The translations under genes and the position numbers were made by a program. Positions 2,030 to 7,446 of a DNA stretch of 61,230 nt are shown one piece after another; positions within the stretch are counted from its first letter, which is position 1; each line of letters starts with the position of its first letter. The notes under the pieces were generated by a model. That model searched no databases, was not told the origin of the DNA, and saw only the letters and a program-made list of their open reading frames with translations. The stretch comes from a bacterium BMS3Bbin13 (GTDB lineage Bacteria > Pseudomonadota > Gammaproteobacteria > 21-64-14): assembly GCA_002897735.1 (NCBI GenBank), contig BDTW01000022.1, positions 1-61,230 on the forward strand. The letters run 5' to 3'.

Positions 2030-2503
2030 TCAGCCTCGGCGCCGGGCGCGGAAGAATTCCCGCAACAGCGCGCCGCATTCGGCGGCGAGCAGGCCGCCTT
2101 CGGCCGGTACGCGGTGATTGAGCCGCGAGTCGCCGAGGATCTCGAATACGCTGCTCACGGCACCGGCGCGGGGGTCGTCGGCGCCGTAGATCAGACGCGC
2201 GATGCGCGCGTGAAGCATGGCGCCGGCGCACATCGCGCAGGGTTCGAGCGTGACATAGAGCGCCACGCCGGGCAGACGATAGTTGCCGACCCGTTCGGCG
2301 GCGGCCCGCAGGGCCTGGATCTCGGCGTGCGCGCTCGGGTCGCACCGCCCGATCGGCTGATTCCAACCCTCGCCCAGCACCACTCCGTCGCGGACCACAA
2401 CCGCCCCGACCGGCACCTCGCCGGTCGCGGCCCCACGCCGCGCCAGCGCCAGCGCACGGCGCATCCAACGCAGGTCTTCGGTGTTGTCGAGAGTCGTGGA
2501 CAC
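2030..2503 (-). CDS. tadA: tRNA(Arg) adenosine-34 deaminase TadA
   Basis: A 157-aa zinc-dependent deaminase that converts adenosine 34 to inosine in the wobble position of tRNA-Arg(ACG). The cytidine-deaminase fold is marked by His59 and the proton-shuttle Glu61 in SAHAEIQAL and by the zinc ligands Cys89 and Cys92 in LEPCAMCAGAM. Length matches the family. In relatives tadA follows guaA on the same strand. Here about 3.4 kb of inserted sequence separates the two, so any guaBA read-through would have to cross the insert. The 170 bp just upstream holds degenerate insert-end sequence and I see no convincing promoter in it. Confidence 0.95.
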   Translation of the reverse strand: MSTTLDNTEDLRWMRRALALARRGAATGEVPVGAVVVRDGVVLGEGWNQPIGRCDPSAHAEIQALRAAAERVGNYRLPGVALYVTLEPCAMCAGAMLHARIARLIYGADDPRAGAVSSVFEILGDSRLNHRVPAEGGLLAAECGALLREFFRARRRG

Positions 2504-2519
2504 CGGCCCGCCATCACGC

Positions 2520-2561
2520 CCATTCAGTCGTAAATAAGCCGAGAAAAGCCAATAATGGCGC
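2520..2561. repeat. Degenerate second copy of the island end sequence
   Basis: This 42-bp stretch aligns with 2683-2723, the left end of the insert, with about 30 of 42 positions matching and one gap. The best-conserved part is the shared TAATGGCGC at the right end. Translated on the minus strand the two copies end in ..LFTTEWA and ..SFTIEWE, both resembling the GuaA C-terminus. I read it as the worn remnant of an earlier insertion or of a duplicated attachment site. The intervening 2562-2676 contains only AT-rich sequence, including a 12-bp palindrome ATTATCGATAAT at 2605-2616, and no gene. Confidence 0.5.
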
Positions 2562-2676
2562 GGGTTTTCCGGTGACTGTCGGTGTCGATGCCATAAAAAA
2601 TACCATTATCGATAATTCTTGGTGCAATACCGCCTCAACCGGCCTTCCTGAGCGGTGCCACTTCCATGAAACACCC

Positions 2677-2694
2677 CTACTCCCACTCGATTGT
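2677..2694. repeat. Direct repeat of the guaA 3' end (left attachment site)
   Basis: CTACTCCCACTCGATTGT here matches CTATTCCCACTCGATGGT at 5872-5889 in 16 of 18 positions and in the same orientation. The right copy is the true end of guaA (..TIEWE stop). The left copy also encodes TIEWE-stop in minus-strand translation but is not joined to a guaA gene. This is the pattern left by site-specific insertion into the 3' end of guaA, a known integration hot spot. Confidence 0.75.
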
Positions 2695-2767
2695 AAACGA
2701 GACTGAAAAACCAGTAATGGCGCAGCCCTCTGTGCCAATGTAAGTGATACATCTTCCCCCAAGTAAA

Positions 2768-3157
2768 TTACTGTAGAGGGGGTCGCGGATTTTCAAGACG
2801 CGCTTCATCAACTGAATCAAGGAAAAACCATGCTTCTCCCGTTGATTGCAGCCATGACTGGAAGAGATTTTCCCCACCTACCTCAAATGCCTTATAGAAA
2901 TCGGCTTCGATATCCTCGATGCGGATAAAAAAGGACGGCTTGCCTTGACTCGCCAGAACACCTGCCCGTTGCCGAAACTCTTCGGTCTTACCCGCACCTG
3001 CTTCAGCCAAAATCACACAACGATACTCGCGGTCAATATCATCCCATGTCTTTGGTTTGTCATGACCCAAAACTGAAAAGATATCATCGATTTCTCCCTC
3101 TAGTTTATCATTTGGGAGAAGCGAAAATTGTCGGTCTAATAGAACATGACTATCCAT
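2768..3157 (-). pseudogene. 5' fragment of a NACHT-type STAND ATPase (truncated)
   Basis: The 129 residues contain a P-loop AEAGAGKT (51-58) preceded by YRCVIL, and a Walker B region WFFLDSVDEAR (110-120). This is the N-terminal part of a NACHT/STAND NTPase, a class that normally continues for many hundreds of residues through the rest of the ATPase and a sensor region and is often used in anti-phage defence. Here the frame stops nine residues after Walker B (..LENPRPPLQ), about 75 bp from the island end, so the ATPase and sensor are lost. I infer a deletion between the gene and the attachment site near 2780. It starts 9 bp after the preceding gene, as in an operon. A functional short protein is unlikely. 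Confidence 0.75.
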
Positions 3158-3166
3158 TCAAATTCT

Positions 3167-3535
3167 CTATAGTGAGCCCGCGTCTCGGATCTCCTGCAGT
3201 TGGCGCAGGTGCTCAAGGTTCCTCGACGCTGTGTCTCGATCCAGCTTGCGAAGTTTGTCAAAGTAGTACGGGTCGAAATGTGGCCATTTCAATAGCGACT
3301 GCAGCATAGCTCGAAATGACCCCAGCCCTTTGTCAGGGCGTTCCGTCAGCTTATCAAGTATTGTATCGACGACTTCATGGCGCCTGAGCGCATTCTCACC
3401 GTCTATCTTCAGGCAGCTCACTTCAGCTTTGGGGCACCCATGCTTCTCGAGGAATCCTATTATGTCTTTACGGGGCCAGAACAGCGACAGGATGCTGTCT
3501 TTCATACAACCTTGGATGTCTGCGGGAAAACTCAT
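3167..3535 (-). CDS. Hypothetical protein, island operon
   Basis: A 122-aa protein starting MSFPADIQGCM. I do not recognise a characterised family. It is rich in charged residues, predicted mainly helical, has no membrane segment or signal peptide, and ends in a helical stretch (HLRQLQEIRDAG). The motif PHFDPYYFDKLRKLD and the N-terminal LFWPRKDI look like conserved signatures. Its end may be artificially short, because the helix looks as if it should continue. A GTG at 3547 overlapping the upstream stop codon is an alternative start. It lies between the AbiEii-like gene and the NACHT fragment in one transcription unit, which suggests a part in the same defence cassette. Confidence 0.6.
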   Translation of the reverse strand: MSFPADIQGCMKDSILSLFWPRKDIIGFLEKHGCPKAEVSCLKIDGENALRRHEVVDTILDKLTERPDKGLGSFRAMLQSLLKWPHFDPYYFDKLRKLDRDTASRNLEHLRQLQEIRDAGSL

Positions 3536-3546
3536 GTCTTTGCCCA

Positions 3547-4446
3547 CTATTTATAAATTCGGTCAAGTAGTTGCGCAATAATATCGCTGACTTGCCGCTG
3601 CCGTAGAGCTCGTGCTTCACGTCGCTCAGGTTCTTCACTCTCACCCAACTCGAATTTTGCAACTGAAACAGGGCCATCCTTGCGATAGCCTTCTGTCTTT
3701 TCATCATCCGCGAAACGCGTACTCAGAATGGCAAGTGATGCGTCGATGACGGCGCCATGCTTGCCACTACACTCCTTGTGGAATTCCTCGCTCACAGCGT
3801 TGATCCCTTCGGGCGCATGCTCGATGCAATAGATCAAGTCGTGAGCATCCTTACGTTCGAAACGTTGGTCGAACGCGAAGGCCTTTAGACAGGTAAAGCT
3901 GACAAGGTTGGCGTGCCTTATCTTCTCGGTCGTGATGCCGTTACCACCCAGCAGTTCGGCTTTGATCTCGGTGACTTGGTAAAGGTCAAAAACGATGGAT
4001 GAATGCGGAATATTCAGTGCTGAGATCGCACCTTCCGTGGGTAGGGGTTGGACCTTCCCACCAGCAATGTCTGGAGCGTCCGCCAGCAGTTCCAATACCA
4101 TCAGCGCACCATGTTCGGTACGGGTTTGCCATCGCCAAGAGAGCTTCTGTTGTTTTTCATTCTCGGCGCGTTCGAAGCCCATTTTCTTAAGGTTGTCCTC
4201 CAGCGTATGGTAAGCTTCAGTGTCCGCCAGAATTTGTAAATCAATCACAATATCAACATCAAGCGTTCCTGCATGTGCGGGTACTGTTGGCGGCCGCGCA
4301 GCAACGAGGTACCGCGGGGTAAGTCCCCCGACCAGGTAGACTGAATCCTTCCACGGACCTAACCCACGCAACAACGTTACGAGGACACGTTCACAATCCG
4401 CCGTATACTGGTCGCTGTAGCCATCGAGCGTTACAGGTTTGGCCAT
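3547..4446 (-). CDS. AbiEii-like nucleotidyltransferase (putative type IV toxin)
   Basis: A 299-aa protein of the DNA polymerase beta-type nucleotidyltransferase superfamily. The fold is indicated by YLVGGLTPRYL (residues 38-47; helix-capping GG) followed by the metal-binding TLDVDIVIDL with Asp63 and Asp65. A later K188, then R/KDAHDL (198-204), resembles the Lys/Lys-Asp motifs of AbiEii toxins. AbiEii proteins transfer nucleotides to tRNA and cause growth arrest or abortive infection. The start codon overlaps the stop of the upstream AbiEi-like gene (TGATG), the coupling expected for an antitoxin-toxin pair. The C-terminus is charged and may differ from classical AbiEii. Toxicity is inferred. 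Confidence 0.75.
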   Translation of the reverse strand: MAKPVTLDGYSDQYTADCERVLVTLLRGLGPWKDSVYLVGGLTPRYLVAARPPTVPAHAGTLDVDIVIDLQILADTEAYHTLEDNLKKMGFERAENEKQQKLSWRWQTRTEHGALMVLELLADAPDIAGGKVQPLPTEGAISALNIPHSSIVFDLYQVTEIKAELLGGNGITTEKIRHANLVSFTCLKAFAFDQRFERKDAHDLIYCIEHAPEGINAVSEEFHKECSGKHGAVIDASLAILSTRFADDEKTEGYRKDGPVSVAKFELGESEEPERREARALRQRQVSDIIAQLLDRIYK

Positions 4447-5543
4447 CAGAAGCCAATCCTTTCCTTGCGGAAGTGTTCGGCCATTTCTTTAGAGCGGCCT
4501 TCGCCTTGCAACAGATCGAGATAAATCTGGATCGGACTGGCCATCCATAGATCATCAATCCGCTCGCGGAACAACAACTCGCCCGGCGACTTTGCTTCGA
4601 TAATCGCCAGATTGGCGCCTTCATTCACAACCCGCGCTCCAAGGTCTCCGATAGCGGTGTCGGCGTTCGATCCGGCCAGTAGCCGTGCACGCACTTGGGA
4701 AACGTTGGAGAGAAATGGCGTATAACGTTGCGCGGCAGCCTCATGACTGATCGCGTACTCGACGCCATGAGCGTCGAACACTTCTCCGACCCAATTCATT
4801 AAGGTGTCCGGCTTAGCAGCCGGGACGTAATACCGGCGCATGGTGGGCGGGCGGATGGTCGCGAGTTGCTTTACCCATGCATCCAGCAAGGCCGTGGGCT
4901 CGCGAAGATGTCTCTCTTTGCTCGGCCCTTTCCCACGCGACGCCATCCAGTCGAAGCGTTCAAGTCCAGTCAGCACTTGCGAGGCGGTCGCAGGCGATAC
5001 CATCGCATGCTTTGCCAACCCCGTAACACCGAACCAATCCTGGTGCTGGATCAGCAGGCTATGGAGCACCTGCGCTCGTCGACCGGTGAATAGGGAGCGA
5101 ACCGACTTCGCCAGGTTCTTTGGTGGTGGTTTATCGATGTAGAAGTAGGCACCTGGGGCAGGCAGATACAGACTCCCACCGCTGTCGTAGTAACCGACAC
5201 GCTCATTTCTGAGCAGTTCTTTTGCCCCTGTGGAAATAGACTCAGCCACGAGGAAATATAGAGGATCGTTGACCCGAGCCTGCGGCCAGCGGTGGCTTGT
5301 TTCCCGAAACTGCCAGATCACTTGCCTGACATCACGGGGAAAGACAGATTTCTTGACTTCTATGTGCAAAACGAAAGTCTTGCCGGTGACGTTCAGATCG
5401 ACCTCGGCATCATGGACACGGTCACCACCCTGGCCCTCTGGTTCCAAGCGTTCGAACTCCGCATGTACCTCCGGGAGTTCCCGCAGGACATCAACAAGCT
5501 GCCCGACCAACTGGTGTTCACTAAGAGAAGATTTAAGAACCAT
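4446..5543 (-). CDS. AbiEi-like antitoxin/transcriptional regulator with an N-terminal ExK-type domain
   Basis: A 365-aa protein. Residues about 155-215 form a winged-helix segment (GVTGLAKHAMVSPATASQVL) like the DNA-binding domain of AbiEi antitoxins, and the C-terminal half corresponds to the AbiEi C-terminal region. Unusually, the N-terminal 80 residues carry AEVDL (Asp49), HIEVKK (Glu62, Lys64) and WQF (Gln78), a spacing reminiscent of PD-(D/E)xK nuclease folds. Whether it is active cannot be told. The ATG at 5543 is preferred over an in-frame TTG at 5549. It is followed without a gap by the nucleotidyltransferase. Two palindromes around the promoter suggest it represses its own operon. 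Confidence 0.72.
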   Translation of the reverse strand: MVLKSSLSEHQLVGQLVDVLRELPEVHAEFERLEPEGQGGDRVHDAEVDLNVTGKTFVLHIEVKKSVFPRDVRQVIWQFRETSHRWPQARVNDPLYFLVAESISTGAKELLRNERVGYYDSGGSLYLPAPGAYFYIDKPPPKNLAKSVRSLFTGRRAQVLHSLLIQHQDWFGVTGLAKHAMVSPATASQVLTGLERFDWMASRGKGPSKERHLREPTALLDAWVKQLATIRPPTMRRYYVPAAKPDTLMNWVGEVFDAHGVEYAISHEAAAQRYTPFLSNVSQVRARLLAGSNADTAIGDLGARVVNEGANLAIIEAKSPGELLFRERIDDLWMASPIQIYLDLLQGEGRSKEMAEHFRKERIGF

Positions 5544-5550
5544 ATTCAAC

Positions 5551-5570
5551 CATTTACTGTTCAGTGAATA
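5551..5570 (-). promoter_or_regulatory. Operator palindrome O2 at the transcription start
   Basis: ATTTACTG-TT-CAGTGAAT is an inverted repeat with one mismatch and shares its core with the perfect palindrome at 5605-5624. It overlaps the predicted transcription start and ends 8 bp before the ATG of the AbiEi-like gene. A bound repressor here would block initiation. Confidence 0.65.
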
Positions 5571-5575
5571 TACGA

Positions 5576-5604
5576 AGATTAGCGAATATCACGCTATATT
5601 GCAA
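5576..5604 (-). promoter_or_regulatory. Predicted sigma-70 promoter of the AbiEi/AbiEii operon
   Basis: On the minus strand a -35 box TTGCAA (5599-5604) and a -10 box TAATCT (5576-5581) are separated by exactly 17 bp. The start point would fall near 5569, about 26 nt before the ATG. The core promoter lies precisely between two copies of the same palindrome, the layout of an autorepressed toxin-antitoxin operon. Confidence 0.65.
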
Positions 5605-5624
5605 TATTTACTGTTCAGTAAATA
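5605..5624 (-). promoter_or_regulatory. Operator palindrome O1 upstream of the promoter
   Basis: TATTTACTG-TT-CAGTAAATA is a perfect inverted repeat with 9-bp arms and a 2-bp centre, directly upstream of the -35 box. Its centre is 54 bp from that of the second copy, roughly five helical turns, so two dimers would bind the same face of the DNA and could interact. Confidence 0.7.
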
Positions 5625-5871
5625 ATCGGGGTTAGAGGGAAACCAAGTGCTTATAAGCGGCTGTTATTGAGTGAATCAGTAAGGAGCCATGTCGGTTGCG
5701 GCCAACATCAAGTCAACCCATCCAGTCACACCACTACCATCATGAGGTAGTGGTGATTACCTAGGCTTCTGCTAAAAGCTCTTTGTTTTTTAAAGTAAAA
5801 AATCTCATTGATAATTTATAAAATTTATCAAACCATGATTTTATACTTAAATTCAATTAGTTATATGCGAC
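5625..5871. other. AT-rich island end without a gene, containing two inverted repeats
   Basis: No coding region is supported here. A strong inverted repeat CACCACTACC-ATCATGA-GGTAGTGGTG (5729-5755) has a 10-bp perfect stem, but no T-run follows on either strand, so it is not a standard terminator. A second one, TTGATAA-N10-TTATCAA (5808-5831), lies 40 bp from the guaA end. Both are where arm sites for an integrase or excisionase would be expected in an integrated element. That role is a guess from position. Confidence 0.4.
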
Positions 5872-5889
5872 CTATTCCCACTCGATGGT
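5872..5889. repeat. Direct repeat at the guaA terminus (right attachment site)
   Basis: CTATTCCCACTCGATGGT is the last 18 bp of guaA read from the plus strand, coding TIEWE and the stop. It pairs with the near-identical copy at 2677-2694. The target codons are strongly conserved among GuaA proteins, which makes them a reliable integration site, and insertion leaves the gene product unchanged. Confidence 0.75.
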
Positions 5890-7446
5890 GGCGGGGGGTT
5901 TTCCCGAGATATCATAGGCGACCCGCGAGACGCCCGGCACCTCGTTGATGATGCGCCGCGAGACCCGCTCGAGGAAATCATAGGGCAGGCGCGCCCAGTG
6001 CGCGGTCATGAAATCCACCGTCTCGACCGCGCGCAGTGCGATGACGTGGTCGTAGCGGCGCGCGTCGCCGACCACCCCTACCGAGCGCACCGGGAGGAAT
6101 ACGGCGAAGGCCTGGCTAACCTTGTCGTAGAGCCCGTCGGCGCGCAGCTCCTCGATGAAGATGGCGTCGGCCAGGCGCAGGGTATCGGCGTAGTCCTTGC
6201 GCACCTCGCCGAGGATGCGCACGCCGAGGCCGGGCCCCGGGAAGGGGTGGCGATAGACCATGTCGGAGGGCAGGCCGAGTTCGACCCCGATCTTGCGCAC
6301 CTCGTCCTTGAACAGTTCGCGCAACGGCTCGACGAGCTTGAGGTGCATGCGCTCAGGCAACCCGCCCACGTTGTGGTGCGACTTGATCACGTGCGCCTTG
6401 CCGGTGGCCGCGCCGGCCGACTCGATCACGTCCGGGTAGATCGTGCCCTGGGCGAGCCAGCGCACGCCCTCGATCCGCGCGGCCTCCTCCTCGAAGATCT
6501 CGATGAACAGGCCGCCGATGACCTTGCGCTTGCGTTCCGGGTCGGTCACGCCCTCGAGCGCATCGAGGAAGCGTTTTTCGGCGTCGACGCGCAGCACGCG
6601 CACGCCCATGTGTTCCGCGAAGGCGGCCATTACCTGGTCACCCTCGTGCAGGCGCAGCAGGCCGTTGTCCACGAACACGCAGGTCAGTCGCCCGCCGATG
6701 GCCCGGTGCAGCAGCGCCGCCACCACCGAGGAGTCCACGCCGCCCGAGAGCGCAAGGAGCACCGGGTCGTCGCCGACCGCCGCGCGCACCCGCCCGATGC
6801 TGTCGTCGATGATCTGCGCCGGGGTCCAGAGCGTGCCGCAGCCGCAGATCTCGTGCACGAAGCGCCCGAGGATGCGCGCGCCCTGGCGGGTATGGGTGAC
6901 CTCGGGGTGGAACTGCAGCCCGTAGAAGCCGCGTTCGTCGTCGGCCATACCCGCGAGCGGCGCGCTGTCGGTGGTCGCGATGACCTTGAAGCCCGGCGGC
7001 AGGGCCGCGACCCGGTCGCCGTGGCTCATCCATACATCGAGCAATCCGTAGCCCTCGGGGCTCGCATGGTCCTCGATGTCGCGCAGCAGGCGCGAGTGAC
7101 CGCGCACGCGCACCTGGGCGTAGCCGTACTCGCGCTTGCCGGAGGGCTCCACCTCCCCGCCGAGCTGTGCGGCCATCGCCTGCATGCCGTAGCAGATACC
7201 GAGCACCGGTACGCCGAGTTCAAAGACCGATTCCGGCACGCGCGGCGTGGCGGCCTGCGTGACCGACTCCGGCCCCCCCGAGAGCACGATGCCGCGCGGG
7301 GCGAACTCACGCACGCGGGCGGCGTCCACGTCGAAGGGCATGATCTCGCAATACACGCCCGCCTCACGCACGCGGCGCGCAATCAGCTGCGTGTACTGGG
7401 ATCCGAAGTCCAGGATCAGGATACGTTCGGCATGAATATCGGACAT
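5872..7446 (-). CDS. guaA: GMP synthase (glutamine-hydrolysing)
   Basis: A 524-aa cytosolic enzyme that aminates XMP to GMP using glutamine and ATP. The N-terminal class I amidotransferase domain contains FGSQYTQ, the nucleophile in VLGICYGMQ and QFHPEVTH. The PP-loop pyrophosphatase domain starts at about residue 220 with LSGGVDSSV. The C-terminal dimerisation domain ends in the invariant KPPATIEWE. The length is standard. guaB lies 76 bp upstream on the same strand. The 3' end has served as the attachment site of the adjoining island and the protein is intact. Confidence 0.97.

Follow-up and report, generated by a model that had tools for sequence, protein, structure and literature searches.

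In the draft assembly of the gammaproteobacterium BMS3Bbin13 (62 contigs), a block of about 3.2 kb between guaA and tadA carries an intact AbiE-like gene pair, encoding a regulator and a nucleotidyltransferase (NTase) behind twin palindromic operators, followed by the truncated beginnings of two defence genes. The block lies in a 61,230-nucleotide stretch of contig BDTW01000022.1, which we call the window. We consider it probable that the block is a decayed island at the guaA 3' end, in which the AbiE-like repressor/addiction pair outlived the cargo. It reads on the minus strand, between the end of guaA (5872) and the start of tadA (2503), has a G+C content of 0.44-0.58 against about 0.70 around it, and contains four open reading frames (ORFs) of the same direction (5549-4446, 4446-3547, 3547-3167 and 3157-2768), the first two whole and the last two cut. 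With this drop in G+C it is foreign DNA at the guaA 3' end, as the original prediction, made from the window sequence alone, had said of an AT-rich 3.2-kb block between the two genes. The features are as follows.

5872 to 7446, minus strand: guaA, the terminal 19 nt of which (5871-5889) form the host-side copy 1 of a repeat resembling an attachment (att) site, with core GAGTGGGA
5607 to 5622, minus strand: operator 1, TTTACTGAACAGTAAA, a perfect match to the palindrome, 5' of the AbiEi-like gene
5553 to 5568, minus strand: operator 2, with a single mismatch, at a distance of 54 bp from operator 1
4446 to 5549, minus strand: AbiEi-like gene, 367 amino acids (aa), ORF intact
3547 to 4446, minus strand: AbiEii-like NTase gene, 299 aa, ORF intact, its start overlapping the AbiEi-like stop
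3167 to 3547, minus strand: Mrr-type restriction endonuclease gene, truncated after about 123 of 305 residues, with DNA homology as far as 3180
2768 to 3157, minus strand: HyoA-like NACHT ATPase gene, truncated after about 125 of 1430 residues, with DNA homology as far as 2780
2676 to 2723, minus strand: att-like end copy 2, made up of a guaA terminus repeat (2676-2694) and an element arm (2705-2723)
2500 to 2561, minus strand: degenerate att-like end copy 3, whose arm (2543-2561) is in common with copy 2

The first protein of the pair matches the AbiEi_2 family (PF09952) at E 7.6e-4, its 20.3 bits falling slightly short of the cut-off of 21, and the same profile is matched at E<=1 by 39 of the 44 aligned AbiEi-like members (best 2.6e-7). 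Its predicted structure (mean predicted local distance difference test score, pLDDT, 84.9) has three parts: residues 10-125, whose model resembles the NucS/EndoMS nuclease domain (2vld, Z 8.9, root-mean-square deviation, rmsd, 3.4 over 103), a predicted winged helix at residues 142-236 (Z about 9), and residues 245-367, modelled as an NTase fold similar to MenT1 (8rr5, Z 11.1, rmsd 3.1 over 118) and to ANT(2'') (Z 10.7). An NTase-type C-terminal fold is reported for AbiEi itself in the available excerpt of PMC7319586, and the NTase-fold entries 5KQJ, 4FO1 and 5UVD, given there as similar to Streptococcus agalactiae AbiEi, are all within the structure list for the AbiEi-like model too. For the NTase model the AbiEi structure 6y8q ranked 21st (Z 6.8); its absence from the 50 rows listed for the AbiEi-like model excludes nothing. 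A sequence search of solved structures with the AbiEi-like profile gave four weak matches, all to the winged-helix part (best 0.0033). No WYL domain was matched at E<=0.1 in the window protein, and WYL is absent from the 25 of 29 Pfam families listed for the 44 members.

The model of the second protein, the NTase, is weaker (mean pLDDT 70.7), and its predicted fold is nearest to MenT1 (8an4, Z 11.3, rmsd 4.1 over 184) and TglT/MenT3 (6j7n, Z 9.5). Invariant in all 36 aligned NTase rows are G40-G41, D63/D65, K188-x6-R195 and K199-D200-x2-D203. PF08843 (DUF1814) was matched by two of the 36 members (best 3.4e-4) and the PADLOC AbiEii model weakly (E 0.0072); a sequence search of solved structures with the NTase profile gave no match. 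Both pair proteins of the window are without an NCBIfam match and have weak PADLOC matches, the best at 2.3e-4 (PDC-M21B). The ratio of nonsynonymous to synonymous differences (pN/pS) was 0.08-0.10 for the NTase gene against its eight closest homologues and 0.18-0.23 for the AbiEi-like gene against its eight closest relatives, and identity to the window, in the aligned subsets, was 68-87% for the NTase (36 rows) versus 48-75% for the AbiEi-like protein (44 rows). The AbiEi/AbiEii-like pair of the original prediction is upheld. A decayed AbiEii-like gene fragment with an internal stop was also seen at locus L033 (G008 C43:8243-8383).

The pair is preceded by a conserved twin operator. Upstream of the AbiEi-like start, the palindrome TTTACTGnnCAGTAAA was found with a match of at least 11/14 in 78 of 82 regions, against 0.9% of shuffles; among these regions are the window, three plasmid loci and one contig included twice (L050, L070). 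The sites are paired 54 bp apart in 74 of the 82 regions and 55 bp apart in one, and a reversed control pattern forms pairs in one of 82. The consensus is nearly unchanged in the 58 of the 74 regions that are non-redundant at 80% identity, where a conserved GAATATTCG lies between the two operators. Within the window there is no other site of the TTTACTGnnCAGTAAA type with up to two mismatches, and a promoter scan of 5480-5900 found one site versus 1.4 in shuffles. The twin palindromes fit autorepression by the AbiEi-like protein; excerpts of PMC3985639 and PMC7319586 describe this mode of control for AbiEi and Rv2827c, where repeats and spacing are different.

A scan of genome contigs with the AbiEi-like alignment, a query with which loci having the NTase without AbiEi could not appear, yielded 78 loci. 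The NTase gene follows at least partly in 70 of them (E<=1e-4) and is whole or nearly whole in 62, two of which have too little sequence behind the NTase, leaving 60 loci for the downstream counts. Of the other 16 loci, eight have less than 0.6 kb of sequence after the AbiEi-like gene. In the remaining eight (L095, L100, L101, L107, L112, L115, L120 and L125), which have over 1 kb there, the NTase gene is either absent or interrupted in the first 61 codons; an AbiEi-like gene kept without a whole NTase fits loss of a toxin with retention of its antitoxin, and equally a regulator that does not need the NTase.

Behind the pair stand varied defence genes. An ORF of at least 90 aa starts within 35 nt of the NTase stop in 36 of the 60 loci, some of the 36 being probably spurious, and this coupled gene is recognisably a restriction or defence gene in 26: a full Mrr-type endonuclease in 14 and a truncated one in L085, a caspase-helicase in six (L056, L061 and L103 by Pfam; L052, L062 and L080 only by shared N-terminal sequence), CARF-RtcR in L078 (PADLOC E 2e-151), HamA in L079, a cytosine methylase in L081, where MzaC and MzaD come later, LmuA joined to the first codons of the endonuclease in L097, and a type IV restriction enzyme in L108. 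In four more loci a defence gene follows after a gap of 121-251 nt, namely HamA (L082), HEC-01A (L086), Mrr (L099) and SIR2 (L054). The next gene is thus a restriction or catalogued defence gene in 30 of the 60 loci, a raw count that has no matched background rate and comes from a classification in which not every next gene was scanned. L084 (PDDEXK_1) and L121 (TIR at E 0.0012, under the cut-off) were not counted as defence. Further on, known systems are completed by HamB (L079, L082), HEC-01B (L086) and QatABC (L061), L053 has QatD and L078 MkoA, and in L089 (11976-19810) an Mrr endonuclease, Gabija GajA/GajB and a long Argonaute run in one direction behind the pair; on a Delftia plasmid, annotated QatABCD follows. 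The two loci in which Hachiman hamA-hamB stands behind the pair (L079, L082) belong to different bacterial bins. By the genes found next to it, the pair often appears as a recurrent leader module for varied defence operons. No description of an AbiEi-like pair leading defence systems was found in the literature searched (titles and abstract openings, with most subscription journals and preprints outside).

We propose that one or two tandem elements integrated at the guaA 3' end, that the integrase was then lost, and that the defence cargo was cut, the Mrr-type endonuclease after about 123 residues and the HyoA-type NACHT sensor after about 125. The AbiEi-like protein would bind the twin palindromes and repress the pair together with whichever gene is coupled behind it, and its NTase-fold C-terminal domain would neutralise a toxic AbiEii-like NTase. 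Since in relatives this pair is often found at the head of operons for different defence systems, it may act there as a portable, autoregulated leader/addiction module; from its frequent place in front of such genes we infer that it would control and guard them, and in the window the pair would have outlived its cargo because of addiction.

The strongest rival, which we regard as doubtful, holds that the pair is a pure, non-toxic regulator of defence operons of the BrxR kind, the NTase serving as a sensor or signal maker. Such a regulator would head many unlike defence systems and have strictly conserved operators, as here, and could do without a whole NTase, as in the eight loci named above; BrxR homologues are reported in the available excerpt of PMC9122601 to be co-localised with defence in 48%, close to the 30 of 60 found here. 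However, in the aligned subsets the NTase is better conserved than the regulator, and the pair is retained with little or no cargo in the window and in L093, which would be needless for a cargo-less regulator.

The ends of the block speak for the island reading. The guaA terminus recurs at its far end (2676-2694 versus 5871-5889) with 17 of 19 positions identical, so that the direct repeats given as 16/18 in the original prediction stand and are extended. A local alignment of the copy 1 and copy 2 ends scored 30, which none of 5000 shuffles equalled (best 29), and copy 2 is the best guaA-terminus-like site within the interval (16/19, runner-up 12/19). The 19-nt element arm is alike in copies 3 and 2 at 17 of 19 positions (2543-2561 versus 2705-2723), and its consensus has no third match in the window at up to three mismatches; the two copies align with a score of 41, again not equalled in 5000 shuffles (best 39). 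The direct likeness of copy 3 to the guaA end is weak, its score being attained by 44 of 5000 shuffles. The third att-like end suggests two tandem elements; two tandem insertions, or an attL/attLR/attR arrangement as in GIsul2, would produce the observed ends. According to the excerpt of PMC9376610, GIsul2 inserts into guaA at its 3' end, there is experimental support for GAGTGGGA as the site of its integrase, and three att sites are present; the core of the guaA end in the window is that same insertion site.

The place behind guaA recurs. With at least 2.5 kb of upstream sequence in 65 of the 78 loci, guaA was found upstream of the pair in four, within 0.53 kb in L116, L093 and L054 and at 2.3 kb in L074. 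L093 has nothing but the pair between guaA and a second terminus repeat (20/23), a unit of 2.2 kb; in L054 the second repeat (18/23) lies at a distance of 6.2 kb, with a truncated SIR2 gene as the third gene; in L074 and L116 no second repeat was found within the available stretch. From these loci guaA appears to be a recurrent but minor site for the pair. The guaA search covered 54 other genomes, from which 29 other guaA loci of the class were fetched, five of them with less than 400 nt to inspect. In the comparison of the guaA-tadA interval proposed in the original prediction, 14 of the 29 loci have tadA no more than 0.9 kb behind guaA (gap below 100 nt in ten), and the same-genus genome, G001, offered no clean empty site. 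Neither the terminus repeat (best 13/19) nor anything matching the pair, HyoA or the endonuclease fragment was found in the G001 interval. That interval (L035) holds repeats containing GGGGACAGTATACC and a second, partial 3' end of a DAHP synthase gene. A decayed copy of the guaA C-terminus, 60% identical over residues 414-519, lies beyond tadA in G020 (L037, 10855-11172), about 2.4 kb from the intact guaA, and is perhaps the trace of another insertion at the guaA site.

These ends also bear on the possibility, which we hold to be unlikely, that the block arose by illegitimate or homologous recombination without a guaA-specific integrase and that the repeats are incidental. Such an origin agrees with the absence of an integrase from the block and of the repeat from the same-genus genome, and with the quite different direct repeats, 48 to 173 bp long, that flank other pairs (L057, L077, L122). 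It agrees less well with the window repeat being the best terminus-like match in the interval, at a score that no shuffle equalled, though narrowly, and with the recurrence behind guaA in four other genomes. Direct repeats of at least 15 nt surround the pair in ten of 74 loci, against two to five in swapped controls, and in nine after L106 was dropped as an artefact of a contig edge. The flanking repeats of L057 (9856/12106, 48 bp, 98%), L077 (9718/12077, 120 bp, 81%), L122 (9394/13012, 173 bp, 95%) and L100 (9558/12229, 265 bp, 85%, NTase cut) differ from locus to locus.

The two genes behind the pair in the window are fragments. The third ORF, an "unknown 122-aa protein" in the original prediction, is neither of that length nor without relatives: it has 126 aa and corresponds to roughly residues 1-123 of a restriction endonuclease of the Mrr type, 305 aa long. 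Its nearest plasmid relatives (Delftia, 76.7% identity) are the start of such a 305-aa protein, the second half of which is Mrr_cat; in the window DNA homology stops at 3180 and a stop codon follows within 15 nt. The fourth gene (129 aa) begins 9 nt past that stop and matches positions 1-121 of the 1430 of HyoA (NF058534, E 6e-44), with homology ending at about residue 125 (nucleotide 2780), in keeping with the truncated NACHT ATPase that had been predicted. HyoA is matched in eight other genomes of the class, with open frames of 1434-1464 aa in five; no relevant paper on the names HyoA and EruA was found in the literature searched. Profile scans of viral contigs with the endonuclease and AbiEi-like alignments confirmed no relative.

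The larger four-gene defence cassette of the original prediction was rejected: HyoA occurs in none of the 78 AbiEi-like loci (Vibrio protein query, tblastn E<=1e-4), and the pair genes and the endonuclease occur in none of five fetched full-length HyoA loci (flanks of about 1 to 9 kb per side). The pair with the full endonuclease recurs in 14 of the 78 loci, none with guaA in the fetched stretch, so for this trio the occurrence at unrelated loci without guaA, named beforehand as evidence against the cassette at guaA, was found. The third gene is cut or fused near its 5' part in L097 (11982-13268), L074 (12015), L085 (3660), L054 (4288) and the window (3180). The point behind the NTase gene looks as if it were prone to exchange.

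In our view the two short genes are very unlikely to be functional decoys or partners, the one as an endonuclease N-terminal domain that works by itself and the other as a short piece of a NACHT protein. The two ORFs are open, codirectional and closely spaced; yet both stop where homology breaks off abruptly inside a conserved protein, the same endonuclease match ends elsewhere in other loci (after 38 residues in L074, 68 in L085 and the first few codons in L097), and the likeness of the endonuclease fragment to the outgroup L049 (0.414) is below that of five intact homologues (0.46-0.48), a mild sign of relaxed constraint; the pN/pS of the fragment against its eight closest homologues (0.17-0.19) is not neutral. 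An assembly artefact joining defence-island reads to guaA/tadA flanks, conceivable in a draft of 62 contigs, is hardly credible, since the joins coincide with att-like repeats and the pair is also found behind guaA in independent genomes.

Several observations weigh against a decayed guaA-site island with an AbiE-type addiction pair. None of the four gene-like ORFs in the block matches an integrase, so site-specific insertion rests on the repeats and the block, with its two cut genes, is rightly called a remnant, as the original prediction had it, and not a working guaA-site integrative island. The element arm has five one-mismatch matches (in five other genomes) among 369 genomes of the class versus six for a reversed control, and hence no relative of the element was found; G001, the only same-genus genome, has its guaA-tadA interval (L035, 8175-16290) filled by 8.2 kb of unrelated genes. 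As regards the pair, the window NTase has no Pfam match, and it is without the AbiEii motif II arginine and has a GG-DhD spacing of 21 instead of 15 when compared with the excerpt of PMC3985639, for which reason we call the pair AbiE-like and not proven AbiE. The PD-(D/E)XK resemblance of the AbiEi-like model (Z 8.9) lies near the level that the comparison tool rates as middling, and the eight NTase-deficient loci indicate that the pair is not kept everywhere. Moreover, 24 of the 60 loci have no coupled ORF of at least 90 aa, and some pairs stand beside ordinary genes (cytochrome in L060, TctC in L071, HPP/CBS in L102).

A wider reading, tentative though possible, is that the pair is a general immunity "socket", a regulator and an NTase driven by a rigid twin-operator promoter, with many kinds of defence system plugged in behind the last codon. 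If so, the module would keep the system silent in peacetime and penalise its loss, and defence genes would be guarded and spread by it, with guaA as one landing site. How defence genes are retained, silenced and exchanged in islands is poorly known. The module with its 54-bp twin operator lies directly or closely before Hachiman, HEC-01, Mza-like, Lamassu-like, type IV restriction, CARF-RtcR, caspase-helicase and Mrr genes, with Qat and Gabija genes somewhat further behind. The pair and its operator could therefore serve as a search handle for new defence genes, by inspection of what lies behind them, and the pair offers a direct way of testing whether immune operons are guarded or controlled by toxin-antitoxin pairs. 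The window itself is a short, readable case of an island that appears to have decayed around such a module.

Among known systems, the pair is closest to the AbiE type IV toxin-antitoxin systems (AbiEi/AbiEii) and the related MenT NTase toxins, with which it shares the two-gene order with overlapping coding, a regulator predicted to combine a winged helix with an NTase-fold C-terminal domain, the NTase residues GG, DhD, K-x6-R and +DxxD, and palindromes in the promoter. It differs from AbiE in an extra N-terminal domain whose model resembles PD-(D/E)XK folds, in the missing motif II arginine and the longer GG-DhD spacing, in its two 16-bp palindromes 54 bp apart, of which repeat sequence and spacing are unlike those of AbiE, and in an operon that often runs on into exchangeable defence genes. 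Like the BrxR-type (WYL) regulators it places a regulator-like gene in front of many unrelated defence systems, but the AbiEi-like protein is without a Pfam WYL match and is coupled to an NTase. HyoA (NCBIfam NF058534) is represented by the first 121 of 1430 model positions, the remainder of the protein being missing from the window gene. With GIsul2, as far as described in the excerpt of PMC9376610, and with other guaA-site islands the block has in common the placement at the guaA 3' GAGTGGGA, three att sites being found in GIsul2 too, whereas it is set apart from them by the missing integrase, a cargo of the defence type and degenerate ends.

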